A program made the translations under genes and the position numbers. Positions 4,765-25,952 of a stretch of 33,561 nt of DNA are shown in pieces. Within the stretch, counting starts at the first letter, position 1. Each line of letters begins with the position of its first letter. Below the pieces are notes generated by a model. The model saw only the letters and a program-made list of their open reading frames with translations, was not told the origin of the DNA and ran no database searches. The stretch comes from Kineococcus rubinsiae (GTDB taxonomy: Bacteria > Actinomycetota > Actinomycetes > Actinomycetales > Kineococcaceae), in contig NZ_VWPY01000047.1 in the NCBI RefSeq assembly GCF_011839805.1, positions 1-33,561 of the forward strand, given 5' to 3'.

Positions 4765-4798
4765 CCCGGGGGGCCGGTCTGGCACCGGACCCCCCGGG
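4765..4798 (+). terminator. Hairpin between clpP2 and clpX
   Basis: CCCGGGGGGCCGGT at 4765-4778 pairs with 4784-4798 (ACCGG, one bulged A, CCCCCCGGG) around a 5-nt loop. No T-tract follows. It could end the clpP1P2 transcript or attenuate read-through into clpX. Confidence 0.6.
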
Positions 4799-4835
4799 GG
4801 CGTCTAATGAGTCGGATCCCGGTCCCCGCGCCGGG

Positions 4836-4841
4836 TAGCGT
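4836..4841 (+). promoter_or_regulatory. Possible -10 box for clpX
   Basis: TAGCGT after the clpP2 hairpin fits TAnnnT and would give a leader of about 70 nt. That leader holds an imperfect 12-bp hairpin (4859-4870 with 4876-4887, one G-G mismatch). No convincing -35 element is visible. Confidence 0.3.
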
Positions 4842-4918
4842 GAACGGCAGGTGACGCACGGACGGGGGCCCTCGCGGCCCCGGTCCGCGCGTCGTGAGCA
4901 CGAGGAGAGGAATCGTCG

Positions 4919-6205
4919 GTGGCACGCATCGGAGACGGTGGCGACCTGCTGAAGTGCTCCTTCTGCGGCAAGAGCCAGAAGCAGGTCAAGAAGTTGATCG
5001 CCGGTCCCGGCGTCTACATCTGTGACGAGTGCATCGACCTGTGCAACGAGATCATCGAGGAGGAGCTCGCCGAGGCCAACGACCTGGGCCTGGTGGAGCT
5101 GCCGAAGCCGAAGGAGATCTTCGACTTCCTCGACCAGTACGTCATCGGCCAGTCCTCGGCGAAGAAGTCCCTCGCCGTGGCCGTCTACAACCACTACAAG
5201 CGCATCCAGGTCGGCGAGCCCACCAAGGGCCGCGAGGACGCGGTGGAGATCTCCAAGTCCAACATCCTGCTGATCGGCCCCACGGGCTGCGGCAAGACGT
5301 ACCTGGCTCAGACGCTGGCGAAGATGCTCAACGTCCCCTTCGCCATCGCCGACGCGACCGCCCTCACCGAGGCCGGCTACGTGGGCGAGGACGTCGAGAA
5401 CATCCTGCTGAAGCTCATCCAGGCCGCTGACTACGACGTCAAGAAGGCCGAGACGGGCATCATCTACATCGACGAGGTCGACAAGATCGCCCGCAAGTCC
5501 GAGAACCCGTCGATCACGCGCGACGTCTCGGGCGAGGGCGTGCAGCAGGCGCTGCTGAAGATCCTCGAGGGCACGACGGCCAGCGTGCCGCCGCAGGGGG
5601 GCCGCAAGCACCCCCACCAGGAGTTCATCCAGATCGACACGACGAACGTGCTGTTCATCGTGGGCGGGGCCTTCGCCGGCCTCGACCGGATCATCGAGGC
5701 GCGCTCCGGCAAGCAGGGTCTCGGCTTCGGGGCCGCGCTGCGCTCCACCGCGGCCAAGCCGGCGATGACCTTCTCCGAGGTCATGCCCGAGGACCTCATG
5801 AAGTTCGGGCTCATCCCCGAGTTCATCGGCCGCCTGCCCGTCATCACCTCGGTCGAGAACCTCGACCAGGAGGCGCTCGTGCGGATCCTCACGGAGCCGC
5901 GCAACGCCCTCGCCAAGCAGTACCAGCGCATGTTCGAGCTGGACGGCGTGGAGCTGGAGTTCACCGACGACGCGCTGGAGGCGGTGGCCGACCAGGCCAT
6001 CCTGCGCGGCACGGGGGCCCGCGGCCTGCGGGCGATCATCGAGGAGGTCCTCCTCCCGGTGATGTTCGACGTGCCGAGCCGCGACGACATCGCCCGCGTC
6101 GTCGTGACGCGCGAGGTCGTGCTGAAGAACGTGAACCCGACGCTGGTGCCCCGCGAGGCGCCCGTCCGCAAGACCCCGCGCGAGCGGCGCGACAAGTCCG
6201 CCTGA
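4919..6205 (+). CDS. clpX: ATP-dependent Clp protease ATP-binding subunit ClpX
   Basis: AAA+ unfoldase that recognises substrates and threads them into ClpP. The 428-residue protein has a complete four-cysteine zinc-binding N-domain (Cys13, 16, 35, 38), Walker A GPTGCGKT at 120-127, the pore-loop motif GYVGEDVE at 153-160, Walker B IIYIDE at 181-186, an RKH loop (GRKHPHQEF), and the ClpP-docking loop as LGFGA where E. coli has an IGF motif; this LGF form is usual in actinobacteria. GTG 4919 is preceded by AGGAGAGG, so the start is secure. It follows clpP2 by 180 bp with a hairpin between, so it may have its own promoter. A large inverted repeat closes the gene. Confidence 0.98.
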
Positions 6206-6217
6206 GCCGCACCCGCG

Positions 6218-6261
6218 ACGACGAAGGGCCCGTCCCCCCGGGGGGACGGGCCCTTCGTCGT
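6218..6261. terminator. Bidirectional terminator between clpX and the yceI-like gene
   Basis: A perfect 22-bp inverted repeat (6218-6239 and 6240-6261) with no unpaired base between the arms, placed exactly between two convergent genes. As RNA the tip would open into a small C/G loop. It reads equally from both sides and so serves clpX (plus) and the minus-strand operon. Confidence 0.85.
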
Positions 6262-6272
6262 GCCGGGGCCGG

Positions 6273-7130
6273 TCAGGTCGGCTGCAGCAGCGCCTCGATG
6301 TCGATGGCGACCTTCAGCGTCGTGCCGAAGACGGTCACGCCGACGCCGATGGCCTGGTTCCAGTTCATCTTGAAGTCGTCGCGGTGCAGCTCCGCCGTGG
6401 CGGAGAAGGCCGCGCGCGTGCCGCCCCACGGGTCGGGGCCCGAGCCGTTGTAGGCCATCCGCAGCTGCACCGGCCGGGTCGTGCCCAGGAGGGTCAGGTC
6501 CCCGTCGAGCAGCCACACGCCGCCGTCTCCCCGGGTCAGCCCCGTCGAGGCGAAGCGGAGGCGGGGGTGCTGCTCGACGTCGAGGAAGTCGGCGGCGCGC
6601 AGGTGGTCGTCGCGCTGGCGGTTGCCCGTGTCGATCGACGTGGCGTCGATGTCGACCTCGACGTGGGACCGGCTCACGTCGTCGGGCACCGTGATGGCCC
6701 CGGCGAAGGACGTGAACCGGCCGTGGACCGCGGACAGCCCGAGGTGGTGGGCCGTGGCCGTGACCGAGGAGTGCGCCGCGTCGATCACCCAGATCCCCGG
6801 GGCGGGGGTGGGGGAGGCGCCGTGGCGCACCAGGCGCAGGTCACCGAGCGGCCACGACCCGGGCGGCACCACGACGGTGCTCGCCTTCGGGTCGTGCCCG
6901 GGCGCGGCCACCAGGAGGGTGGCCGGGCCCGGCGGCACGTCGGTGAGGGTCAGCGACCCGTCGCTCGCGCTGACGGCGCGGGCGACCTGGCGCCCCTCGG
7001 CGCTGAGCAGGGTCACGGAGGCGCCGGCGACGGGCCAGCCCTCGCGGGTCAGGACCCGCCCCGTGCCGGTGCCGCCCGTGGCGGCACCGGTGCGGGACGA
7101 GGACAGCCTGGCGTCCGGGGAGGAGGTCAT
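6273..7130 (-). CDS. CRD-YceI fusion protein
   Basis: The 285-residue product has two parts. Residues about 22-105 form one carboxypeptidase-regulatory-like domain (beta-sandwich; pattern V..R.G.PV.GA.VTL, then an SDGS turn and a VPPG.A.L.V hairpin). From about 108 to the end lies a YceI domain, recognised by [10 protein letters not shown], the HGRFTSFAG strand and the terminal [17 protein letters not shown] segment. YceI proteins are lipocalin-like and bind polyisoprenoid-type lipids. No signal peptide is visible, so the protein is probably cytosolic or surface-bound by other means. The ATG at 7130 overlaps the stop of the upstream pump gene as ATGA, implying translational coupling. The CRD resembles those on the C-terminus of that pump. 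The domains are clear; the ligand and role are unknown. Confidence 0.9.
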
Positions 7131-9664
7131 GCGCGACGGCTCCCGAGCTCCAGCTGCGCCGCGGCGACGCTGTCCTCCTCGACGTCGACGCTGGTCGCGA
7201 CCGGGGCGTAGCCCGACGCGGTGAGCGTGTAGTGCCCGCCCGCCAGGTCCTCGAAGGAGTAGGTGCCGTCCTCGGCGGTGACGGCCGCGGCGACGACGTC
7301 GCCCTCGGCGTCGACGAGGGTGACCGAGGCCTCGCGGACCCGGCGCCCGTCGCTGGCGGCGATGACGGTGCCGGTCAGGCGCCCGCCGCCGGTGAGCTGC
7401 AGGTCGCAGGTCAGGCTGCCCGCGTCGGGCACCTCGACGCTGCGGGCCAGCGGGCGGTGGGCGTCGCTCTGCGCGGTGAGGACGTAGGAGCCGCCCATCA
7501 GCTGGGCGAAGGCGTAGCCGCCGTTGCCGTCGCTGCGGGTGGAGCCGACGACCTCGCCCGTGATGTCCGTCAGCGTCACGAGGGCGCCGGGGACGGGGAC
7601 CACCGCGTCGGAGACGGCGTCGCGGGTGGCGACCTGCCCCGTGACGGCGGCGCGGCCGGCCAGGACGACGTCCTGGCGCACCGGGGTGCTGCCGACGGGC
7701 ACGAGGGTCGCGGACGGCTGGACGTGCGCGGCGGCGACGATCAGCAGGTAGGTCCCGCCGGTCGGCAGCGCCAGCACGTAGTCGCCGTCGTCCCCGCTGG
7801 TGGTGCGGGCGACTTGCTGACCGGTCTGGTCGGCGAGGGTCACCACGGCGCCGGTCAGCGCCCGGCCGTCGTGGCGGCGGACCGTGCCCGAGACCGTGAG
7901 GCCCGCGTCGGAGCGCGTCGAGGACGCGGCCGTGGCGGCGCCGCGGGGGGTGCCGTCGAGGGCCGCCCGGGCGGTGCCGTTGACGGTGCCGTTGGTGCCG
8001 CCGGTGGTCGTGCTGGCGACGGTCTCGCTGGTCCCGCCGGTGGTCGTGCCCCCGGTCGGCACGCCCGCGCTCACGTCGGCGGGCGCCGCGGTGACGGCGG
8101 CCTCGGCGGCTGCGGCACCCCCGGCGCCGCGCAGGGCGACCTCCTTGAAGAAGAAGGTGAACAGCAGCGCGACGAGCGCGAACGGGGCCGCGATGAGGAA
8201 GACCTCGGCGATCGAGGACCCGTAGGCGGACTGCACGATCGGGCGGACCTGGACGGGCAGGGCGTCGATGTCCGGGATGCCGGTGGTGGAGGCGCCCAGC
8301 GCGGAGGCCGGGATGCCGGCGGCCGTGAGGCCCGTCTCGAGGTGCGAGGCGACGCGGTGGCTGAGGACCGCCCCGAGCGCCGAGACGCCGATGGCGCCAC
8401 CGAGGGTCCGGGTGAAGGCGATGAAGGAGCTGGCCGAGCCGAGGTCCTCGGGAGCGGTCACGTTCTGCACGGCGAGCACGAGGTTCTGCATCATCATGCC
8501 GACGCCGAGGCCGATGAGGGCCATCCACGGGGCGACGATCCAGTAGTTCGTGTCGTACTCGATGGTGCCCATGAGGCCCAGGCCCGCGGTGAGCAGGATG
8601 CCGCCCGCGATGACCCAGGCCTTCCAGCGGCCGGTGCGGGTGATGAACTGCCCGGCGATCGTCGAGGAGAGCACGAGGCCGAGGATCATCGGGATGGTCT
8701 TGACGCCCGACATGGTCGGCGTCTCGTCGCGCGCCAGCTGGAAGTACTGGCTCAGGAAGATCGTCGCGGTGAAGAGGCCGATGCCGACGAAGAGGCTGGC
8801 GAGCGCGGCGATGGTGATGGTGCGGCTGCGGAAGAAGCGCAGCGGGATGATCGGGTCCTTCGCACGGCTCTCGGCGAGCACGGCGAGGGCGAGGAGGACG
8901 ACACCGCCCGCGACGAGGCCGACGGTCCACCAGGAGCCCCAGTCGAACTGCTGCCCGGCGAGCGAGACCCAGATGAGCAGCGCGGAGATGCCGGCGGCCA
9001 GCAGGGTCGCGCCGAGGTAGTCGATGTGGACCTCGCGGCGCGCGGTCTGCGGCAGCTTCAGCTTGAACTGCAGCACGATGAACGCCAGCACGGCGAAGGG
9101 GACGCCGACGTAGAAGCACCAGTGCCAGGACAGGTGCTCGGTCAGCACCCCGCCGATGAGGGGCCCGCCCACGGTCGCGAGGGCGAACGTCGCGCCCAGG
9201 TAGCCGGAGTACCGGCCGCGCTCCCGGGGGGAGACGATCGTCGCCAGGATGACCTGCGCGAGGGCGATGAGCCCGCCGCCGCCGATGCCCTGGAAGACGC
9301 GCATCGTGATGAGCATCCCCATGTTGACGGAGAGGCCCGCGACGGCGGAGGCGACGACGAACAGGACCAGGGCGATCTGGACGAGGACCTTCTTGTTGAA
9401 GAGGTCCGCGAGCTTGCCCCAGATCGGGGTCGAGATCGTCGTGGCGAGCAGGGCGGCGGTGACCACCCACGTGTAGCCGGACTCCGTGCCGTTCAGGTCC
9501 TTGACGATCGTCGGCAGGGCGTTGGAGACGACGGTGGACGACAGGATGGCCACGAACATGCCGAGCAGGAGGCCCGAGAGGGCCTCCAGCACCTGCGCGT
9601 GGGACATCTTCTGCGGCGCCTGCTGCGCGACGTGCTGCGCGTGGGCCGGTGCGGTGGTGGTCAT
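7127..9664 (-). CDS. DHA2-family MFS efflux pump with three C-terminal CRD domains
   Basis: 845 residues. The first about 510 form a 14-helix DHA2 (EmrB/QacA-like) drug/H+ antiporter with motif A GKLADLFNKK and motif C-type GGPLIGGVL. The first helix reads LSSTVVSNALP, so it lacks the Asp seen in the classical LDxTIV motif. After the last helix (about 486-510, followed by Lys/Arg) comes a Thr/Gly-rich linker to about 587. Three tandem carboxypeptidase-regulatory-like domains follow (about 588-670, 674-755, 758-841), each with a 'G.V....GR...GA.VTL.D' start and a DG-Y-F-L-GG-Y hairpin. ATG 9664 has an AGAGGAA box and overlaps the marR stop as ATGA; the end overlaps the next start as ATGA. The substrate is unknown. 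The tail is unusual for a transporter and is nearly repeated at 25185-25949. Confidence 0.93.
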   Translation of the reverse strand: MTTTAPAHAQHVAQQAPQKMSHAQVLEALSGLLLGMFVAILSSTVVSNALPTIVKDLNGTESGYTWVVTAALLATTISTPIWGKLADLFNKKVLVQIALVLFVVASAVAGLSVNMGMLITMRVFQGIGGGGLIALAQVILATIVSPRERGRYSGYLGATFALATVGGPLIGGVLTEHLSWHWCFYVGVPFAVLAFIVLQFKLKLPQTARREVHIDYLGATLLAAGISALLIWVSLAGQQFDWGSWWTVGLVAGGVVLLALAVLAESRAKDPIIPLRFFRSRTITIAALASLFVGIGLFTATIFLSQYFQLARDETPTMSGVKTIPMILGLVLSSTIAGQFITRTGRWKAWVIAGGILLTAGLGLMGTIEYDTNYWIVAPWMALIGLGVGMMMQNLVLAVQNVTAPEDLGSASSFIAFTRTLGGAIGVSALGAVLSHRVASHLETGLTAAGIPASALGASTTGIPDIDALPVQVRPIVQSAYGSSIAEVFLIAAPFALVALLFTFFFKEVALRGAGGAAAAEAAVTAAPADVSAGVPTGGTTTGGTSETVASTTTGGTNGTVNGTARAALDGTPRGAATAASSTRSDAGLTVSGTVRRHDGRALTGAVVTLADQTGQQVARTTSGDDGDYVLALPTGGTYLLIVAAAHVQPSATLVPVGSTPVRQDVVLAGRAAVTGQVATRDAVSDAVVPVPGALVTLTDITGEVVGSTRSDGNGGYAFAQLMGGSYVLTAQSDAHRPLARSVEVPDAGSLTCDLQLTGGGRLTGTVIAASDGRRVREASVTLVDAEGDVVAAAVTAEDGTYSFEDLAGGHYTLTASGYAPVATSVDVEEDSVAAAQLELGSRRA
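7130..7903 (-). repeat. Dispersed inverted repeat, copy 1: three-CRD tail of the first pump
   Basis: This segment encodes the last 258 residues of the first pump. It aligns without gaps to the last 255 residues of the second pump at 25185-25949 on the other strand; about 200 of 255 positions are identical by eye. Several 10-residue blocks are identical (for example TYLLIVAAAH and GYAPVATSVD). Confidence 0.9.
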
Positions 9665-10188
9665 GCGTTCCTCTGCAGGTGGTGCTCCGGGTGGGGACCG
9701 GGCGGGGTCGGGGTGACGGGGGCCGTGGCGCGCGGGCCGCACGCGTCGGGTTCGGCGCACGGAGCGTCCGTCCCGGCGGGGGCGCCGGCGCGGGCGAGGC
9801 GGTCCAGCAGGCGGGCCAGCAGGTCGATCTCCGCGTCGTCCCAGTCGGCGAGCCTCGCGACAAGGGTGTCAACGAGGTGCCGGCGGTGCGACCTGAGCTC
9901 GGCGACGCCGGTCTCGGTGAGGCTGAGGCGCTGGGAGCGGCCGTCCTGCGGGTCCGGGACCGCGGTGAGCAGACCGCGCTGGCGCAGGTGGGTCACCTGC
10001 CGGCTGACCGTGGAGAGGTCGAGACCGAGGGTCTCGGCGACCTCGGAGACGCGGGGGGTGCCGCTCTCGTGCACGGCGGCCAGGGTCGCCGTGGAGGGAG
10101 CGGGGGTGCTGCCCACGATCGCGCGGCGTGCCCGCAGCAGGCCCGGGAGGACGTCCACGAGCCCGGCACAGGCGTGGGGTGTGGCCAT
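9661..10188 (-). CDS. MarR-family regulator (pump-linked)
   Basis: 175 residues with a MarR winged helix: VSEVAETLGLDLSTVSRQV as the helix-turn-helix, then the wing with DPQDGRSQRL and the LTETG turn. MarR proteins bind palindromes as dimers and often repress an adjacent pump until a small ligand binds. ATG 10188 is preceded by GAAGG at proper spacing; the frame continues upstream, but nothing there looks like protein. The stop overlaps the start of the pump gene (ATGA), so regulator, pump and CRD-YceI should be one transcript. A perfect GTTGCA/TGCAAC palindrome lies just upstream in the likely promoter. The last about 35 residues are Pro/Ala-rich and probably disordered. The effector is unknown. 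Confidence 0.92.
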   Translation of the reverse strand: MATPHACAGLVDVLPGLLRARRAIVGSTPAPSTATLAAVHESGTPRVSEVAETLGLDLSTVSRQVTHLRQRGLLTAVPDPQDGRSQRLSLTETGVAELRSHRRHLVDTLVARLADWDDAEIDLLARLLDRLARAGAPAGTDAPCAEPDACGPRATAPVTPTPPGPHPEHHLQRNA

Positions 10189-10223: not shown

Positions 10224-10254
10224 ACCGTACTCGCAGATGGTTGCAGCATGCAAC
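10224..10254 (-). promoter_or_regulatory. Promoter and MarR operator candidate of the pump operon
   Basis: On the minus strand TTGCAT (complement of 10248-10253) and TACGGT (complement of 10224-10229) are 18 bp apart and would serve as -35 and -10. A perfect palindrome, GTTGCA-GCA-TGCAAC at 10240-10254, covers the -35 box. A related half-site, TGCAAGCAAC, lies at 10216-10225 over the -10 box. Binding by the adjacent MarR is inferred from position only. Confidence 0.5.
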
Positions 10255-10295: not shown

Positions 10296-10724
10296 CTAGA
10301 GGCTCGCGTTGAGGCGGCCGACGAGGCCGGCGAGCTGGGCGATGTCGTCCTGGCTCCAGTCGCGCAGCCGCTCCCGCAGCCGCTCGCGGCGCGCCTGGCG
10401 CGCGGCGTGGACCCGCTCGAGGCCCGTGGGGGAGAGGGTCAGCCGCACGGCGCGACCGTCGGTGGGGTCGGCCGTGCGCTCCACGAGCCCGAGGCGCTCG
10501 AGCATCTGCACCTGCCGGCTGAGCGTCGGCTTGCCGATGCCGAAGAAGGCCGCGAGGTCCGAGGGACGCGCGTCGCCCGTGTCGTCGAGGCGCACGAGGA
10601 GGCTGTACGCCTCCGACTCCAGGTCCGGGTGCACGGAGCGGGCCACCTCCCGGGAGATCGCCCGCGACCTGCGCAGGAGGACGGCGAGCTCCCGCTCGAG
10701 CTGCTCTCCGGGTCCGGTCACCAT
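10296..10724 (-). CDS. MarR-family regulator
   Basis: 142 residues, a compact MarR protein: an N-terminal dimerisation helix, then the helix-turn-helix PSDLAAFFGIGKPTLSRQV, the wing with DPTDGRAVRL, and C-terminal helices ending in LNASL. It precedes the pump-linked marR on the same strand with a 107-bp gap that contains a promoter-like element, so the two may be transcribed separately. No ribosome binding site is seen before ATG 10724; instead TAGGTT sits exactly six bases upstream, which fits a leaderless start. It is divergent from padR. Target and ligand are unknown. Having two unrelated-looking MarR genes in a row before one pump is unusual. Confidence 0.9.
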   Translation of the reverse strand: MVTGPGEQLERELAVLLRRSRAISREVARSVHPDLESEAYSLLVRLDDTGDARPSDLAAFFGIGKPTLSRQVQMLERLGLVERTADPTDGRAVRLTLSPTGLERVHAARQARRERLRERLRDWSQDDIAQLAGLVGRLNASL

Positions 10725-19212: not shown

Positions 19213-21264
19213 CTAGAAGGCGCCGACCTCGTGGAAGCGCCGGCCGGTGGCGCGCTCGCTGGCGCCCGTGCGGTCGAGGTAGGGCGTGATGCCGCCGGTG
19301 AACAGCGGGTGGCCCGTGCCGAGCACGAGGCACACGTCGACCTCCTGCGGTCGCGCGACGACGCCGTCGGCGAGCAGCCGGGAGATCTCGTCGGCGAGGG
19401 CGTCCTGCACCCGGACCAGGACCTCCTCCGCGGTCGAGGGGGCGTCGCCCTGCTGCACGACGCCCTGCTCGGCCCCCGTGAGCGCGACGGGTCCCTTGCG
19501 CGAGACCAGGTCGGGGCTGCCGGCCTCGACCCAGCGCTCGAGGTTGTCCGAGACGCGGTAGCGGTCGGGGAACGCGCCGGCGAGCGTGCGGTGCACGTGC
19601 AGCATGACGGCCGGGCCGACGAGGCTCGCCAGGCGCAGCGGCGACATCGGCAGCCCCATCGGGTCGACCGCGCGGTCGGCCTCCAGCAGCGGGGTGCCCT
19701 CGTCGACGGCCCGCATGACCTCGTCGAACATCCGGGTCAGGACGCGGTTGACCACGAAGGCGGGGGCGTCGCTGACGAGCACGCACGTCTTCTTCAGCTT
19801 GCGGCCCAGGGCGAACGCCGTGGCCAGCGTCGCCTCGTCGGTCTGCGGGGTCCGCACGACCTCGACCAGCGGCAGGACGGCCACGGGGTTGAAGAAGTGG
19901 AACCCGACGAAGCGCTCGGGGTGCTCGAGCACCCCGGCCATGGCCGAGACCGACAGCGAGCTGGTGTTCGTGGCGATGACGGCGTCCTCGCGCAGCAGCG
20001 GCTCGAGCTCGCGCAGCATCTGCTGCTTCACCGCGAGGTCCTCGAACACGGCCTCGATCACGAAGTCCGCCAGCCCGAGCGCGGCCTTGTCGGTGGACCC
20101 GGACACGTTCGCACGCAGCCGGTTCGCGGTGTCGGAGGTGATCCGGCCCTTGGCCAGCAGCTCGTCGACGCCCGAGCGGACGAATGCGACGCCCTTCTCC
20201 ACGCGCGCGTCGTCGACGTCGGTGAGCACGATGGGGACCCGGAGGCGGTGCAGCAGCAGGAGCGCCAGCTGGCTCGCCATCAGCCCGGCGCCGACGACGC
20301 CCACGCTGGTGACCTTGCGCGCGAGCTCCGCGGGCGGCGCGCCCTGCGGCTTCTTGCCGGCGCGCTGCACGAGCGTGAACGCGTAGAGGCCCGCGTGCAG
20401 CTCGTCGGAGACGCCGAGGTCGGCCAGGGCCGCGTCCTCGGCGGCGAAGGCCTCCTCGCGCGAGGCGGTGCGGGCCCCGGCGATGAGCTCCAGCGCCCGG
20501 TAGGGGGCGGGGGCCGCGCCGTGCACGCGGGCGTCGGCGACGGCCCGGCCGCGGGCCACGGCGGCGTCCCACGCGGCGGCGTCGCCCGTGTGGTCCGGGC
20601 GCGGCACGACGACGTCGCCGCGGAGCACGCCCGCGGTCCAGCGCAGCGACTCCACGAGGAAGTCGGCCGGCGCGAACGCCGCGTCGGCGATGCCGAGCTG
20701 CAGGGCCGCGGGCCCGTCGATGCTGCGGTTGTTGGCCAGCGCGTTCTCGATCGCGACGGTGACGGCCGCGGCCGGGCCGATCAGGCGCGGCAGCAGGTAG
20801 CAGCCGCCCCAGCCGGGGACGAGGCCCAGGTACGCCTCGGGCAGCCCGAGCCCGCGGGCGCCGGTCGACACGGTCCGGTACGTGCAGTTCAGGGCGGTCT
20901 CGAGGCCGCCGCCGAGCGCGAGCCCGTTGACGTAGGCGAACGTCGGCACGCCCAGGGTGCCGAGGCGGCCGAGGACCGCGTGCCCGCGGCGGCCCAGCTC
21001 CTCGCTGAGCGCGCGGTCGTGCACGGACGCGACCGCACCGAGGTCCGCACCGGCGCAGAACACGCCGTTCGCCCCGGTGACGGCCACGGCGACGACGCCC
21101 GCGGTCTCCACGAGCCCCTGCGCCGCGGTGACGGCCGCGTCGAAGGCCTCCAGCGACTCCGCGCCCAGCGTGGCGGGGCGGCGGGGGTCGCCCGAGGTGA
21201 GGGTCAGCAGGGCCAGCGGGCCGGCGCCGCCGGGCAGGTCGACGAGCCGGACGTGGGTGGGCAT
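19213..21264 (-). CDS. fadJ: Fused enoyl-CoA hydratase / 3-hydroxyacyl-CoA dehydrogenase
   Basis: Bifunctional beta-oxidation enzyme: hydrates enoyl-CoA, then oxidises the 3-hydroxyacyl-CoA with NAD+. Of 683 residues, about 1-210 are a crotonase domain with NGLALGGGLE and the second glutamate in GLPEAYLGLVPGWGG. From about 320 the dehydrogenase begins with VGVVGAGLMASQ; the usual MGxGIA after the Gly-rich turn is replaced by MASQLA, a variant seen in related actinobacterial enzymes. GFHFFNPV with the catalytic His and the C-terminal domain with TGGITPYLDR follow. ATG 21264 overlaps the thiolase stop as TGATG, so both subunits are made together, as in the FadAB complex. The gene symbol is approximate: fadB or fadJ would both fit. 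Confidence 0.92.
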   Translation of the reverse strand: MPTHVRLVDLPGGAGPLALLTLTSGDPRRPATLGAESLEAFDAAVTAAQGLVETAGVVAVAVTGANGVFCAGADLGAVASVHDRALSEELGRRGHAVLGRLGTLGVPTFAYVNGLALGGGLETALNCTYRTVSTGARGLGLPEAYLGLVPGWGGCYLLPRLIGPAAAVTVAIENALANNRSIDGPAALQLGIADAAFAPADFLVESLRWTAGVLRGDVVVPRPDHTGDAAAWDAAVARGRAVADARVHGAAPAPYRALELIAGARTASREEAFAAEDAALADLGVSDELHAGLYAFTLVQRAGKKPQGAPPAELARKVTSVGVVGAGLMASQLALLLLHRLRVPIVLTDVDDARVEKGVAFVRSGVDELLAKGRITSDTANRLRANVSGSTDKAALGLADFVIEAVFEDLAVKQQMLRELEPLLREDAVIATNTSSLSVSAMAGVLEHPERFVGFHFFNPVAVLPLVEVVRTPQTDEATLATAFALGRKLKKTCVLVSDAPAFVVNRVLTRMFDEVMRAVDEGTPLLEADRAVDPMGLPMSPLRLASLVGPAVMLHVHRTLAGAFPDRYRVSDNLERWVEAGSPDLVSRKGPVALTGAEQGVVQQGDAPSTAEEVLVRVQDALADEISRLLADGVVARPQEVDVCLVLGTGHPLFTGGITPYLDRTGASERATGRRFHEVGAF

Positions 21265-22514
21265 CAGCGGGCTCCTGCCGTGTCGGACCCGGAGGCGGTG
21301 CCGGCCGGGGAGGGGACGAAGTCGGCGTGGTGCGGGTTCTCCCACACGACGGTGCCGCCCTGGCCGAGGCCCACGCACATCGCGGTGACGCCGTAGCGGA
21401 CCTCGGGGTGCTCGGAGAACTGGCGGGCCAGCTGGGTCATGAGGCGCACTCCCGAGGCGGCCAGCGGGTGGCCGATCGCGATGGCCCCGCCGTAGCGGTT
21501 GACCCGGGGGTCGTCGTCGGCGATGCCGAAGTGGTCGAGGAAGGAGAGCACCTGCACCGCGAAGGCCTCGTTGAGCTCGAACAGCCCGATGTCCTCGATG
21601 CCGAGACCCGCGTGCCGCAGCGCCTTCTCGGTCGAGGGGATCGGCCCGAGGCCCATCACCTCGGGCTCGACGCCCGCGAAGCCGAAGCCGGCCATCCGCA
21701 TCCGCGTGGTGAGCCCGAGCTCGGCCGCGACGTCCTCGGCGGCCAGCAGGCACGCCGTGGCGCCGTCGGTCAGCGGGGAGGCGTTGCCGGCCGTGACCCG
21801 GCCGTGCGGGCGGAACGGGGTGCGCAGGTTCGCGAGCCCCTCGACCGTGGTCTGGGGGCGGGCGAGCTCGTCGGCGCTCGCGAGGCCCCACGCGCCCTCG
21901 GCGTCGCGGACCGCCACGGGGACGAGGTCGGCGGCGACCTGCCCCGCGGCGACGGCGGCGGCGAACTTCTGCTGGCTGGCGGCCGCGAAGGCGTCGGCGC
22001 GGTCCTTGGTCAGGGCCGGGAACCGGTCGTGCAGCGACTCGGCGGTCTTGCCCATGTCCAGGGCGTCCGGGTCGACGATGCGCTCGGTGAGGAACCGCGG
22101 GTTCGGGTCCATGCCGGCGCCCAGCGGGTGATGGCCCATGTGCTCGACCCCGCCGGCGAGGGCGACGTCGAGCGCCCCGACGGCGATGCTCGCCGCGACG
22201 GTGGTGACGGCCGTCATGGCCCCCGCGCACCAGCGGTCGATGGCGTACCCGGGCGTCGTCACGGGCAGGCCGGCGAGCAGGGCCGCGCTGCGGCCGAGGA
22301 CGAGGCCCTGGTCGCCCGTCTGGGTGGCCGCCGCGACGGCGACCTCCTCCACGCGCTCGGGGGGCAGGGACGGGTTGCGGCGCAGCAGCTCCCGCAGGCA
22401 CGCGACGACCAGGTCGTCGGCGCGCGTGTCGGCGAACAGACCGTCCGGGCGGGCCTTGCCGAAGGGTGTGCGGACGCCGTCGGCGAACACGACGTTCCGG
22501 GTGGTGCGGGTCAC
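21264..22514 (-). CDS. fadA: Acetyl-CoA acyltransferase (3-ketoacyl-CoA thiolase)
   Basis: Catalyses the last step of beta-oxidation, thiolytic release of acetyl-CoA. The 416-residue protein has the nucleophile Cys96 in DRWCAGAM, the NEAFAV motif, the catalytic His in GHPLAASG and the second catalytic Cys in CVGLGQGG. GTG 22514 has an excellent AGGAGG box. The stop overlaps the start of the fused dehydrogenase gene by one base. The TetR gene lies upstream on the same strand with a 134-bp gap holding a TAGGGT box (minus strand, complement of 22565-22570) as a possible -10. Confidence 0.95.
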   Translation of the reverse strand: MTRTTRNVVFADGVRTPFGKARPDGLFADTRADDLVVACLRELLRRNPSLPPERVEEVAVAAATQTGDQGLVLGRSAALLAGLPVTTPGYAIDRWCAGAMTAVTTVAASIAVGALDVALAGGVEHMGHHPLGAGMDPNPRFLTERIVDPDALDMGKTAESLHDRFPALTKDRADAFAAASQQKFAAAVAAGQVAADLVPVAVRDAEGAWGLASADELARPQTTVEGLANLRTPFRPHGRVTAGNASPLTDGATACLLAAEDVAAELGLTTRMRMAGFGFAGVEPEVMGLGPIPSTEKALRHAGLGIEDIGLFELNEAFAVQVLSFLDHFGIADDDPRVNRYGGAIAIGHPLAASGVRLMTQLARQFSEHPEVRYGVTAMCVGLGQGGTVVWENPHHADFVPSPAGTASGSDTAGAR

Positions 22515-22648
22515 GGGACCTCCTCGTCGGTGACGGACCGGGCTCGTCGAGCCGGTCCGCCGCCACCCTACGCGGCGGGCCCAGGTATGCGGTACCGGCG
22601 GTGACAGGTACTTGCCCGGACGGCGCAGCGGCCCGCCCGGGCGGGGGC

Positions 22649-23371
22649 TCAGTCGCGGCGTCCGTGCTTGCGCCGGCCCATGGCCTCGGCGAGCTCCTCC
22701 TCGTCCAGCGGCCGGCCCGGCAGGGCGGCGCACCCGCCGGGCGGGCAGCGCAGGCCGTCCAGCAGCACGGCGAACAGCCGGCGCCAGTGCTCCGGGTGGG
22801 CCGTGCCACCGATCTCGGCCGCCACCTGCACCGCCTCCAGGGTCGTGACGACGTCGCTCGCGGCGACGTCGGGGCGCAGCTGGCCGCTCTCCTGCGCCCG
22901 CCGCAGCAGCCCCTCCACGCGGGGCGCGAGCTGGCTGCGGGCCAGGGCCACGCCCGCGCGGCCGTGGTGCGGGGACATGACGACCTGGCGCAGGCCGCGG
23001 TCCTCGGCCATCCGCTCGCTGGAGGCCACGAGGAACCCGGCCAGGCCCTCCCACGCGTCCTCGGCCCGCGCCGCCTCCTCGGCCAGCTCGACCAGGCCGG
23101 TGATGCGCTCCTCGAAGAGCGCCTCGACGAGGGCGTCCTTGTCGGGGAAGCGGCGGTAGACCGTGCCGACGCCGAGGCCCGCGGCGTGGGCGACGTCGTC
23201 GAGGGTCGCGGCGAAGCCGCGGTCGGCGAAGACGTCGCGGGCCGCGTCGAGCAGGCGCCGGCGGTTGCGCTCGGCGTCGCGGCGCAGCGGGCGCGCCGTG
23301 TCGGCCGGTCCCGCACCGGCGGCCGGCGGCCCGGGCGGTCCCGCGTCGGCGCGGGGGAGTCGTTCGCTCAC
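22649..23371 (-). CDS. TetR-family regulator
   Basis: 240 residues. A roughly 30-residue disordered N-terminus precedes the TetR DNA-binding domain: RRLLDAARDVFADRGFAATLDDVAHAAGLGVGTVYRRFPDK split over helices 1-4. The ligand domain includes a C-terminal region with a CPPGGC pair of cysteines. The gene sits between the beta-oxidation pair (downstream, same strand) and the second CRD-tailed pump (divergent), so it could control either. The GTG start at 23371 lacks a ribosome binding site, but a minus-strand TACCCT hexamer lies exactly six bases upstream, again a leaderless pattern. The nearest palindrome is at 23436-23454, on the pump side. Confidence 0.92.
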   Translation of the reverse strand: MSERLPRADAGPPGPPAAGAGPADTARPLRRDAERNRRRLLDAARDVFADRGFAATLDDVAHAAGLGVGTVYRRFPDKDALVEALFEERITGLVELAEEAARAEDAWEGLAGFLVASSERMAEDRGLRQVVMSPHHGRAGVALARSQLAPRVEGLLRRAQESGQLRPDVAASDVVTTLEAVQVAAEIGGTAHPEHWRRLFAVLLDGLRCPPGGCAALPGRPLDEEELAEAMGRRKHGRRD

Positions 23372-23383: not shown

Positions 23384-23421
23384 GACCGCGGAAGCGGAGG
23401 CGCCGACTCAAGTTCCGGTGC

Positions 23422-23454
23422 TAGTCTGCGTCGAAGCGGAGAAGAAGTCTCCGC
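23422..23454 (+). promoter_or_regulatory. Promoter and TetR operator candidate of the second pump
   Basis: TAGTCT at 23422-23427 fits a -10 box for the pump gene. Just downstream GCGGAGA-AGAAG-TCTCCGC (23436-23454) is a perfect 7-bp-arm inverted repeat in the leader, before the AGGAGG box at 23461. It may be a TetR operator or simply an RNA hairpin. Confidence 0.45.
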
Positions 23455-23474
23455 GTCACCAGGAGGCCCTCCCC

Positions 23475-25952
23475 ATGCAGACCCCCGCCCCCGTGGCGGT
23501 CGCCGGCGACGGCGGCTCCGCCGACGCGACGGACACCGGATCGCACCGCGCGAAGTGGATCGTGCTCGCGGTCCTCTGCCTCGCGCAGCTGATGGTCGTG
23601 CTCGACGCGACGATCGTGAACATCGCGCTGCCCACCGCCCAGCAGGACCTCGCCTTCTCCGACGAGGACCGCCAGTGGGTCGTCACGTCCTACGCGCTGG
23701 CCTTCGGCAGCCTGCTGCTGCTGGGCGGGCGCCTGTCGGACCTGCTGGGCCGCAAGCTCATGTTCCTCGTGGGCCTGGTCGGGTTCGCCGCCTCCTCCGC
23801 ACTGGGCGGGGCCGCCGAGGGGTTCGGGACGCTCATCGTCGCCCGCGCCCTGCAGGGCGCCTTCGGCGCGATGCTCGCCCCCGCGGCGCTGTCGCTGCTG
23901 ACCACGACCTTCACGGACCCGCGGATGCGGACCAAGGCGTTCTCGATCTTCGGGGCCGTGGCCGGGGCCGGCGGCGGCATCGGGCTGCTGCTCGGCGGCC
24001 TGCTGACCGAGCACCTCTCCTGGCGCTGGTGCCTCTACATCAACGTCGCGCTCGCCGTCGTCGCGGTCGCGGCCGGCGTCGTGCTGCTGACGAACGACCG
24101 CTCCAAGGAGCGGCCGGTCCTCGACTGGTGGGGCACGGTCACCGCGATCCTCGGCCTCGTCGGGGTCGTCTACGGCCTGGCGAACGCCGAGTCAGACGGC
24201 TGGTCGAGCCCGAGCACGTGGGGCTTCCTGGTCGCGGGCCTCGTGGTCCTCGTGGTCTTCACCGTCCTGCAGAGCCGCGTGGCGCACCCGCTGCTGCCGC
24301 TGCGGATCGTGCTGCACCGCAACCGCGGCGGCTCCCTCGTCGCCCTCGCCGTCACGGGCGCGGGGATGTTCGGGGTCTTCCTCTTCCTCACGTACTACAT
24401 GTCCAACAGCCTCGGCTACAGCCCGGTCCAGACCGGCCTGGCGTTCCTGCCGATGATCGGCGCCATCTCGGTCGCCGCGGCCCTGCTGGGCGGGCCCCTG
24501 CTGGCCCGGGTCGGCCCGAAGCCCGTCATCAGCGCCGGGATGCTGCTGGCCGCCGTCGGCATGGTGCTCCTGACGGGCATCGAGCTGGACTCCGCCTACG
24601 CCTCCGCGATCCTGCCGGGCCTCATCGTCCAGGGCCTCGGCCTGGGCCTGGTGTTCTCCGCGGCCATGGCCACGGCGACGCAGGGCGTGCGCGCCGACGA
24701 CGCCGGGGTGGCCTCGGCGATGGCCAACACCACCCAGCAGATCGGCGGCTCGATCGGCACCGCGCTGCTCAGCGCCTTCGCGGGCACCGCGGCCTCGGAC
24801 TGGATCGCCGAGAACGTCGCGGGGGCGCCCTCGCCCGAGCAGCTCGCCGAGGCGACCCTGGCCAGCTACCACACGGCGTTCTGGATCTCGGCCGGGATCT
24901 TCGCCGGCGGGGCCGTGGCGTCCTTCCTGCTGCTGCGCCGCGGCGTGCCCGACGAGGCCGGCGCGGACGCCCCGGGGGAGGGCGCGCACGTCGCCTCCGT
25001 CGCGGTCCCCGCCGAGGCCCCGACCGCCGCGAACCCGACCGCCGCGACCCCGCGCGGCGCGCACCGCGCGCAGCAGCCGGTCCCCGCGGCTCCGGACTCG
25101 GCAGCTCAGGAGACGGCAGCTCAGGAGACGGCGGCCGAGGTCCCCGCGGCCCGGGTGCCCGCGCAGGGCGTCCGCAGCGACGTCGGCCTCACGGTGTCCG
25201 GGAGCGTGCGGCAGCACGGCGGCCGGGCCCTGCCCGGGGCGGTCGTGACGCTGACCGACAAGACGGGGCGCCAGGTCACGCGCACCACCAGCGGCCCCGA
25301 CGGCTCCTACGCCCTCGCGCTGCCGACCGGCGGCACGTACCTGCTCATCGTGGCGGCCGCGCACGTGCAGCCGTCCGCGACGCTCGTCGCGGTCGGCGGC
25401 ACCTCGGTGCGCCGGGACGTGCTGCTGTCCGGGCGCGCCTCGATCGCCGGCCGCGTCGAGAGCCGCGACGCCGCCTCGGGCGCGCTCACGCCCGTCGCGG
25501 GGGCCCTCGTCACCCTGACCGACGTGACCGGCGAGGTCGTGGGCTCCACGCGCACCGACGCCGCCGGGGGCTACGCCTTCGCCCAGCTCCTCGGCGGCAG
25601 CTTCGTGCTGACGGCGCAGAGCGACGCGCACCGCCCGCTGGCCCGCGGCGTGGAGATCCCCGACAGCGGGGGCCTGGCCTGCGACCTGCAGCTCACCGGC
25701 GGCGGGCGCCTGGCGGGCACCGTGGTCGCCGCGAGCGACGGCCGCCGGGTCCGCGAGGCCTCCGTCACCCTCGTCGACGCGCAGGGCGAGGTCGTCGCCG
25801 CCGCGGTCACCGACGACGAGGGCGCCTACTCCTTCGACGACCTGCCCGGCGGGCAGTACACGCTGACCGCGGCGGGCTACGCCCCGGTCGCGACGAGCGT
25901 CGACGTCGAGGAGGACGCGGTCGCGGCCGCGCAGGTCGAGCTCGGCCGCTGA
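23475..25952 (+). CDS. DHA2-family MFS efflux pump with three C-terminal CRD domains (second copy of the tail)
   Basis: 825 residues. Residues about 25-488 form a 14-helix DHA2 antiporter with LDATIVNIALP in helix 1, motif A GGRLSDLLGRK and a motif C-type GGGIGLLLGGLL. The transporter differs clearly from the first pump, which lacks the helix 1 Asp. After the last helix (ending LLLRRG, positive side probably cytoplasmic) there is an Ala/Pro-rich linker with a tandem QETAA repeat, then three carboxypeptidase-regulatory-like domains (about 571-654, 656-740, 741-825) nearly identical to those of the first pump. ATG 23475 has a perfect AGGAGG eight bases upstream. It is divergent from a TetR gene, the usual place of a TetR-controlled pump. 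The substrate is unknown. Confidence 0.93.
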   Translation: MQTPAPVAVAGDGGSADATDTGSHRAKWIVLAVLCLAQLMVVLDATIVNIALPTAQQDLAFSDEDRQWVVTSYALAFGSLLLLGGRLSDLLGRKLMFLVGLVGFAASSALGGAAEGFGTLIVARALQGAFGAMLAPAALSLLTTTFTDPRMRTKAFSIFGAVAGAGGGIGLLLGGLLTEHLSWRWCLYINVALAVVAVAAGVVLLTNDRSKERPVLDWWGTVTAILGLVGVVYGLANAESDGWSSPSTWGFLVAGLVVLVVFTVLQSRVAHPLLPLRIVLHRNRGGSLVALAVTGAGMFGVFLFLTYYMSNSLGYSPVQTGLAFLPMIGAISVAAALLGGPLLARVGPKPVISAGMLLAAVGMVLLTGIELDSAYASAILPGLIVQGLGLGLVFSAAMATATQGVRADDAGVASAMANTTQQIGGSIGTALLSAFAGTAASDWIAENVAGAPSPEQLAEATLASYHTAFWISAGIFAGGAVASFLLLRRGVPDEAGADAPGEGAHVASVAVPAEAPTAANPTAATPRGAHRAQQPVPAAPDSAAQETAAQETAAEVPAARVPAQGVRSDVGLTVSGSVRQHGGRALPGAVVTLTDKTGRQVTRTTSGPDGSYALALPTGGTYLLIVAAAHVQPSATLVAVGGTSVRRDVLLSGRASIAGRVESRDAASGALTPVAGALVTLTDVTGEVVGSTRTDAAGGYAFAQLLGGSFVLTAQSDAHRPLARGVEIPDSGGLACDLQLTGGGRLAGTVVAASDGRRVREASVTLVDAQGEVVAAAVTDDEGAYSFDDLPGGQYTLTAAGYAPVATSVDVEEDAVAAAQVELGR
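25101..25130 (+). repeat. 15-bp perfect tandem repeat in the pump linker
   Basis: GCAGCTCAGGAGACG occurs twice head to tail, encoding a repeated five-residue unit in the linker between transporter and CRD tail. Its lower GC content stands out from its surroundings. Copy number could vary between strains. Confidence 0.85.
25185..25949 (+). repeat. Dispersed inverted repeat, copy 2: three-CRD tail of the second pump
   Basis: Encodes the last 255 residues of the second pump. It is the counterpart of 7130-7903 on the other strand; the alignment needs no gap, and the similarity starts abruptly at GLTVSG after unlike linkers. Confidence 0.9.

Follow-up and report, generated by a model that had tools for sequence, protein, structure and literature searches.

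A contig of Kineococcus rubinsiae (NZ_VWPY01000047.1; its whole 33,561 nucleotides were analyzed and are called the window here) carries an operon for a MarR-family regulator, a drug exporter of the DHA2 family and a YceI lipocalin-like protein, the last two of which have one kind of domain in common. The exporter ends in three carboxypeptidase-regulatory-like domains (CRDs), and the lipocalin-like protein, named CRD-YceI below, begins with one. The initial annotation of this stretch had described the exporter and its tail but had missed the operon around them, including the adjoining CRD-YceI gene; the finding is broader than that and points to an exporter-carrier system with a shared docking domain. 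The parts of the operon are as follows.

9661..10188, minus strand: MarR-family regulator, first gene of the operon (MarR_2, 41.2 bits, cut-off 27; probable start at 10188)
7127-9664, minus strand: gene of the DHA2 exporter with three CRDs (ATG at 9664, stop at 7127, 845 amino acids)
8153..9664, minus strand: DHA2 exporter part, residues 1-504, 14 modelled membrane helices (Pfam, NCBIfam, AlphaFold2, charge bias, Foldseek)
7904..8152, minus strand: linker, residues 505-587, mostly disordered (predicted local distance difference test [pLDDT], low conservation)
7661..7903, minus strand: CRD1 (CarboxypepD_reg), residues 588-668 (Pfam, AlphaFold2 model)
7394..7660, minus strand: CRD2, residues 669-757 (Pfam, AlphaFold2 model)
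7127..7393, minus strand: CRD3, residues 758-845 plus stop (Pfam, AlphaFold2 model)
6273..7130, minus strand: CRD-YceI, 285 amino acids, third gene of the operon (N-terminal CRD at nucleotides 6819-7067, YceI lipocalin-like domain at 6282-6809)
10241..10253, no strand: TTGCA-N3-TGCAA palindrome upstream of the MarR gene, a possible operator

The order MarR, pump with three CRDs, CRD-YceI is tightly packed: the stop of the MarR gene overlaps the ATG of the pump gene, and the stop of the pump gene overlaps the ATG of the CRD-YceI gene (ATGA in both cases). The membership of the parts as DHA2, MarR and YceI domain is secure. That the transporter is complete, as had been claimed, was borne out: its coordinates proved exact, MFS_1 matched with 174 bits, the NCBIfam DHA2 model TIGR00711 scored 256.7 bits, over its curated cut-off of 230.2, and fourteen long helices span residues 22-504 in an AlphaFold2 model of the full protein (mean pLDDT 85.4, 40-row alignment). 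Thirteen of the fourteen helices were recovered by a plain hydropathy scan, a weak guide in that it also flags beta-strands within the CRDs of P0001, of the MMPL protein and of the loci L301 and L225 (see below). Foldseek gave as top matches EmrB (8zal_J), EfpA (8ufd_A), the Rv1410 homologue MHAS2168 (8pnl) and QacA (7y58_A); family membership makes the pump a putative proton-driven drug exporter. The flexible linker and the three tandem beta-sandwiches of the initial annotation were likewise recovered, with pLDDT below 50 over residues 523-586, CarboxypepD_reg (PF13620) in three stretches (108 bits versus a cut-off of 32.3) and three beta-sandwiches modelled at residues 588-840. The commonest residue of a column has a mean frequency of 0.65, 0.59 and 0.66 in CRD1, CRD2 and CRD3, 0.66 in the pump part and 0.35 in the linker. 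A chance or decaying tail was ruled out by these conserved columns and by the fact that tail and pump have diverged to the same extent between G000 and G002 (87.6% and 86.1% identity, respectively), while an assembly accident or a rarity was ruled out by the class census and the genus-wide presence described below.

CRD-YceI matches YceI (PF04264) with 151.4 bits, over the cut-off, and falls short of the E. coli-type equivalog NF002994 (127.3 bits versus 232). Its model (pLDDT 87.5) resembles TT1927b (1wub, TMt 0.87), the "antibiotic sequester" 7bwl, E. coli YceI (1y0g) and BcnA/B (5ixg), and its CRD matches the transthyretin-like domain of carboxypeptidase D (5aq0_A, E value about 1e-3); from this fold, CRD-YceI may bind isoprenoids or other hydrophobic ligands. 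When compared over 49 loci with each tail position as a possible origin, its CRD scored highest with CRD1 (93.6, versus 84.8 and 81.1 for the others). No signal peptide was seen in the CRD-YceI of the window. Among its confirmed relatives, 592 in number, the best 80, those most similar to the query, were kept; they come mostly from Streptomyces, with Actinomadura, Pseudonocardia, Nocardia, Nocardioides, Isoptericola and others also represented. A hydrophobic stretch before the CRD is absent in 79 of these 80, and in the other one (L298) the stretch precedes the likely ATG. In 68 of the 80 loci, CRD-YceI is preceded on its strand, at a distance of no more than about 400 bases, by a triple-CRD gene, which includes an exporter part in 65 cases. 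A MarR relative is found further upstream in the same orientation, at most about 1.2 kb away, in 56 of these 68; the other 12 comprise two with TetR, three at contig edges and seven with neither.

Judged by their sequences, the tail and CRD-YceI stay alike at loci where the pump differs. Pairwise distances were compared over 94 loci plus the window; the starting material was 134 loci at which the pump matched over nearly its full length and 119 at which CRD-YceI did, in genome sets that may overlap where pooled. Over these 95 loci, tail and YceI distances correlate at 0.94 and pump and YceI distances at 0.77; the partial correlation of tail and YceI is 0.87, and after thinning to 18 loci the correlations are 0.73 for the tail and 0.12 for the pump. 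At two loci of Planosporangium mesophilum, CRD-YceI has 98.6% DNA identity over 791 bases and the tail 86.2% over 739, no further DNA match occurs at an E value of 1e-5 or lower, and the pumps are distant (distance, 1.77).

Sequence and modelling strongly indicate that the three CRDs of the tailed pump lie in the cytoplasm. The initial annotation had placed the C terminus inside the cell, and the even number of modelled helices agrees with this, as does the charge distribution: assuming fourteen helices and an N terminus inside, 19 lysine and arginine residues fall on the inner side (9 in loops, 10 at helix ends) versus 4 on the outer side (2 and 2). An MMPL transporter also bears this tail, behind 12 hydrophobic segments in the hydropathy scan, and the partner CRD-YceI is signal free. 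Further evidence for the cytoplasm comes from triples that stand apart from any pump, either behind a single helix, as in the following locus, or in soluble frames.

L301 (Actinocatenispora comari) 4766-6825, plus strand: single-helix anchor with triple CRD, and CRD-YceI (hydropathy scan)

There, the frame upstream of CRD-YceI consists of one N-terminal hydrophobic segment, the residues RRARR and the triple CRD, with no pump; a tail-less MFS frame stands about 3.4 kb further upstream, and the arrangement is perhaps a minimal form of the system. The triple-CRD frames of L180 and L225 have no membrane segment ahead of their domains in the hydropathy scan. The suggestion that the CRDs form a cytoplasmic docking or sensing platform is, as an inference, supported by this topology. 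In L225 (307-4045, minus strand), the soluble triple-CRD frame lies upstream, on the same strand, of genes labelled by eye as a small membrane protein and a sodium:solute symporter-like protein, perhaps a further transporter type tied to free CRDs.

In a sample of the class, the CRD triple was detected in 51 of 394 genomes, which represent 13 of 138 genera (E value of 1e-20 or lower); at most six candidates were scored per genome, so that triples per genome are lower bounds. The census comprised 88 places, 4 of them in the window genome, and classification of the 84 others by BLAST gave 85 triples (one locus has two). Group A, which is nearest to the first tailed pump of the window and at least 50% identical to it, has 36 of them, and group B, which is also nearest to that pump but less than 50% identical, has 33, the line between the two being arbitrary; 7 are P4-like, 3 belong to group D, 1 is an MMPL protein and 5 are unassigned (two soluble, two at contig ends, one truncated). 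CRD-YceI was present in the fetched stretch for 32 of the 36 group A triples, for 1 of the 33 in group B and for one contig-end triple. In all 11 of 11 genomes of the genus, the tailed pump and CRD-YceI adjoin on the same strand. Rarity of the architecture is not supported: it is common, although no characterization of it came to light in the papers searched. A literature search by title and abstract, not an exhaustive one, found no account of CRD-tailed exporters or of CRD-YceI, which is weak evidence, since most subscription papers lay outside the search.

The tail itself appears to have moved. The window genome holds four CRD triples, two in the window, one on a third DHA2 pump and one on an MMPL transporter. 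The second triple in the window, missed by the initial annotation, belongs to the first of these two genes.

23418..25952, plus strand: second DHA2 pump with CRD triple (Pfam)
22652..23371, minus strand: TetR-family regulator divergent to the second tailed pump (Pfam)

The two window tails are 79.1% identical (82.3% in DNA), and their pump parts are 31.5% identical. Relatives of the second pump with 64 to 75% identity are tail-less in all seven cases read (two in G001 and one each in G003, G004, G005, G008 and G009), the tail is present on the second pump in G000 and G002, and the three remaining genomes of the genus have no relative at least 60% identical. In G001 and G005, the distance between a tail-less relative and the tailed first pump is about 17 kb, as it is for the tailed second pump of G002. 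Given the seven tail-less relatives and this equal spacing, the second pump most likely gained a copy of its neighbor's tail before G000 and G002 split, and we infer that the tail is a portable adaptor moved by evolution between exporters. The MMPL and third DHA2 triples (L049, 8963-12121, minus strand, and 5143-7764, plus strand) lie with their tails facing, about 1.2 kb apart, and a frame with a GGDEF motif, recognized by eye, lies between them. An MMPL protein with a CRD triple is also found in another family (L156, 2024-5452, plus strand); it is 27% identical to the MMPL protein of the window genome, and its tail is perhaps an independent fusion.

Group B pumps have a recurrent neighbor of their own. 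A Polyketide_cyc2 "lipid transport" gene, the product of which we take to be START-like, precedes the tailed pump on its strand in 28 of the 33 group B loci and is also found beside the soluble triple of L180; beside CRD-YceI, it occurs in none of the 80 loci. In L180 (1823-3247, plus strand), the soluble triple-CRD frame directly follows the Polyketide_cyc2 gene, in the place that the group B pump has in the 28 loci, and the pump seems to be missing.

Several known systems resemble parts of this arrangement, and filing it as EmrAB type, BcnA type, NF002994 or LprG type fails on the features tested. The DHA2 exporters EmrB, QacA and EfpA have the same 14-helix fold, and the window pump scores over the TIGR00711 cut-off; however, their chains, at 470 to 510 residues, roughly equal the pump part in length and so have no CRD tail. 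Unlike in the EmrAB-TolC type, no EmrA-type adaptor was found among the 20 window frames given to Pfam. CarboxypepD_reg or transthyretin-like domains also occur in carboxypeptidase D and in surface proteins (same domain, PF13620 in three copies; fold match, 5aq0_A), whereas the CRDs described here are probably cytoplasmic and sit on exporters of two superfamilies. The YceI lipocalins TT1927b and BcnA have the fold of CRD-YceI, which differs from them by its N-terminal CRD and its lack of a signal peptide. According to passages of PMC5350466, BcnA is released and captures antibiotics outside cells; the binding of antibiotics by a secreted YceI protein is weak, lipophilic vitamins are bound more deeply, and the authors doubt that antibiotics are the main ligands. 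Passages of other articles report that most YceI crystal structures hold an isoprenoid (PMC9113575), that a yceI gene raised the pinene tolerance of E. coli (PMC4596283) and that YceI occurs in a different gene cluster (PMC6868719). A lipocalin gene is linked to a gene for a membrane protein, cytochrome b561, in lcoA-bcnA (PMC9113575); there, the membrane protein is a redox protein, the lipocalin is secreted and the passages in question mention no shared docking domain, whereas the window has an exporter and a signal-free CRD-YceI. The mycobacterial pair Rv1410-LprG comes closer. As the abstract and introduction of PMC10576003 present it, an MFS exporter is encoded in an operon with a carrier of hydrophobic ligands, and both are needed for full function; the homologue 8pnl is, as noted, a top fold match of the window pump. 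LprG, however, is lipid anchored, lies outside the inner membrane and receives the exported lipid, whereas the signal-free CRD-YceI would feed the pump, and the same abstract and introduction mention no CRDs, which the window pump and CRD-YceI both have.

The best explanation, which we consider close to an even call, is that the CRD tail is a cytoplasmic docking platform at which a CRD-YceI carrier brings hydrophobic cargo to a MarR-controlled DHA2 exporter. In such a system, the YceI barrel would capture a hydrophobic molecule (a drug, an antibiotic, a prenylated compound or a quinone) from the cytoplasm or the inner leaflet, the CRD of CRD-YceI would bind the CRD triple of the pump, which would serve as docking platform at the inner membrane face, and the cargo would be handed to the exporter; MarR would control synthesis of the exporter and be de-repressed by the cargo. 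The proposal draws on the topology of the tail, on the linkage of CRD-YceI to triple-CRD genes, on the likeness of tail and CRD-YceI at loci where the pump differs, and on a ligand theme. This theme derives from the YceI fold, which is like that of the polyisoprenoid binder TT1927b and of 7bwl, and from the Polyketide_cyc2 neighbors of group B. With somewhat less confidence, we see a wider role as possible, in which a portable triple-CRD tail on MFS, MMPL and other anchors in Actinobacteria would recruit soluble carriers (CRD-YceI and perhaps START-like proteins) for loading from the cytoplasm; as part of that wider reading, and just as tentatively, a carrier-fed exporter would be, by analogy, the inward mirror of Rv1410-LprG.

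A number of observations weigh against the carrier-docking proposal. We infer from sequence, in the first place, the docking of the tail to CRD-YceI, the cargo, the hand-over and the de-repression of MarR, and even for the nearest analogue, Rv1410-LprG, contact had not been shown according to the same parts of PMC10576003. CRD-YceI lacks a triple in its flank in 12 of the 80 loci (L305, L310, L311 and L313 to L321) and is itself missing from 4 of the 36 group A loci, one of which (L192) has a YceI fragment only. It is also absent from 32 of the 33 group B loci and from groups C, D and MMPL, which means that the tail must also serve other purposes, and the second tailed window pump has no CRD-YceI neighbor among the frames tested. 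In G018, of the same order, a pump 68% identical to that of the window is tail-less and CRD-YceI lies on another contig; pump and CRD-YceI can thus part. As for the correlated distances, some correlation of pump and YceI is left once the tail is accounted for (partial correlation, 0.34; neither this value nor the 0.87 for the tail was reached in 999 permutations), and within group A alone the contrast is small, with 0.94 for the tail versus 0.87 for the pump (n = 80) and 0.89 versus 0.86 (n = 12), so that the result rests mainly on loci with other pumps. The correlations also stem partly from shared descent and from a selection that kept the 80 loci closest to the query. Finally, all Polyketide_cyc2 links fall within one genus (g57), and the 28 of them may reflect one old event kept by descent.

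Among the other explanations, an unlikely one is that the tail is a ligand-sensing or auto-inhibitory gate that switches the pump, with CRD-YceI merely buffering free ligand. Transporters with cytosolic sensing domains are known, the tails are as well conserved as the pump, and most of group B as well as groups C, D and MMPL have them without CRD-YceI; yet a linker of about 60 disordered, poorly conserved residues would make a poor lever, and a pump-specific gate would not be expected to recur on MFS and MMPL proteins, on a single-helix anchor and in soluble frames. Another explanation is a scaffold for oligomers or localization (clustering of exporters or binding of a common cytoplasmic structure), of which CRD-YceI would be one of several clients: soluble triple-CRD frames exist, four tailed transporters of two superfamilies occur in one genome, and a copy of the tail most likely arose on the neighboring pump within the genus. 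We nevertheless rate a scaffold as improbable, as by itself it leaves unexplained why the tail agrees more tightly with CRD-YceI than the pump does and why genes of a ligand-binding type turn up repeatedly next to tailed pumps.

No more probable than a scaffold is mere co-expression, in which pump and CRD-YceI answer the same stress independently and the CRD they have in common serves stability or solubility in general. MarR-controlled stress operons often gather unrelated functions, many YceI and DHA2 genes have no CRDs, and in G018 CRD-YceI is apart from a tail-less pump; against this, the partners of one operon have the CRD module in common and the pair is kept where the pump differs. The other alternative of the initial annotation, an extracellular gate, to which a wall anchor may be added, is very improbable. 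CRDs are usually found on secreted and surface proteins, and the tailed pump does have such affinities: SdrD- and SpaA-like surface domains also scored in Pfam, SdrD is the sole solved-structure relative of the tail by sequence (a weak match), and the surface protein 6fwv, not an MFS protein, is among the Foldseek matches. An outside location runs counter, however, to the even number of modelled helices, to the charge bias of 19 versus 4, to the same tail on an MMPL protein and in signal-free soluble frames, and to a signal-free CRD-YceI in the same operon.

The uptake of very hydrophobic cargo by single-component drug exporters is usually explained by diffusion in the membrane; if the carrier-docking proposal is true, a cytosolic lipocalin docking on the pump by means of a matching domain would offer a second explanation, and the tail would be a natural adaptor for joining carriers to exporters. 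Most of the 80 loci belong to Streptomyces, for which self-protection and the export of hydrophobic natural products are important. Pumps of this kind probably carry the plain annotation of MFS transporter, which makes the CRD module easy to miss.

Some smaller observations concern the operon and its relatives. The TTGCA-N3-TGCAA palindrome has a single match in the window and none in 100 shuffles; of the 9 other genomes of the genus scanned, 4 have an exact copy some 540 to 580 bases ahead of the pump start (5 of 10 with the window's own), and no exact copy was found at that place in the remaining 5. Directly upstream of the operon's MarR gene, on the same strand, lies a further MarR-family gene (10299-10724, minus strand). 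In G018, CRD-YceI (L231, 4067-5299, plus strand) stands amid unrelated-looking genes with no triple nearby, and the tail-less pump is at L230 (1002-3464, plus strand). Two of the CRD-YceI genes without a tailed pump (L311 and L313) lie amid housekeeping-like genes. An automatic tally of the N-terminal extension from the nearest ATG or GTG gave a median of 3 residues for linked and unlinked CRD-YceI alike; by eye, with upstream starts chosen, 11 of the 12 unlinked proteins seem to have a basic leader, whereas the linked ones inspected (14 of 68) for the most part begin at the CRD, which is only a hint of a basic leader on unlinked CRD-YceI that goes against the automatic tally. Many Streptomyces loci (e.g., L244, L258 and L272) also have, a few kilobases downstream of CRD-YceI and on the opposite strand, an MFS frame that lacks a tail and shares about 30% identity with P0004.

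Plasmid copies of the tailed pump were not found: in 21 plasmid records, no single region matched 80% of the query, and coverage is 46 to 56% in the 15 plasmid matches listed. Elsewhere in the window, about 3 kb (19231-22601) have no Rfam match, and two frames tested there have no Pfam match. The window scan found no RNA features near the operon; two tRNAs lie near 1.3 to 1.6 kb.

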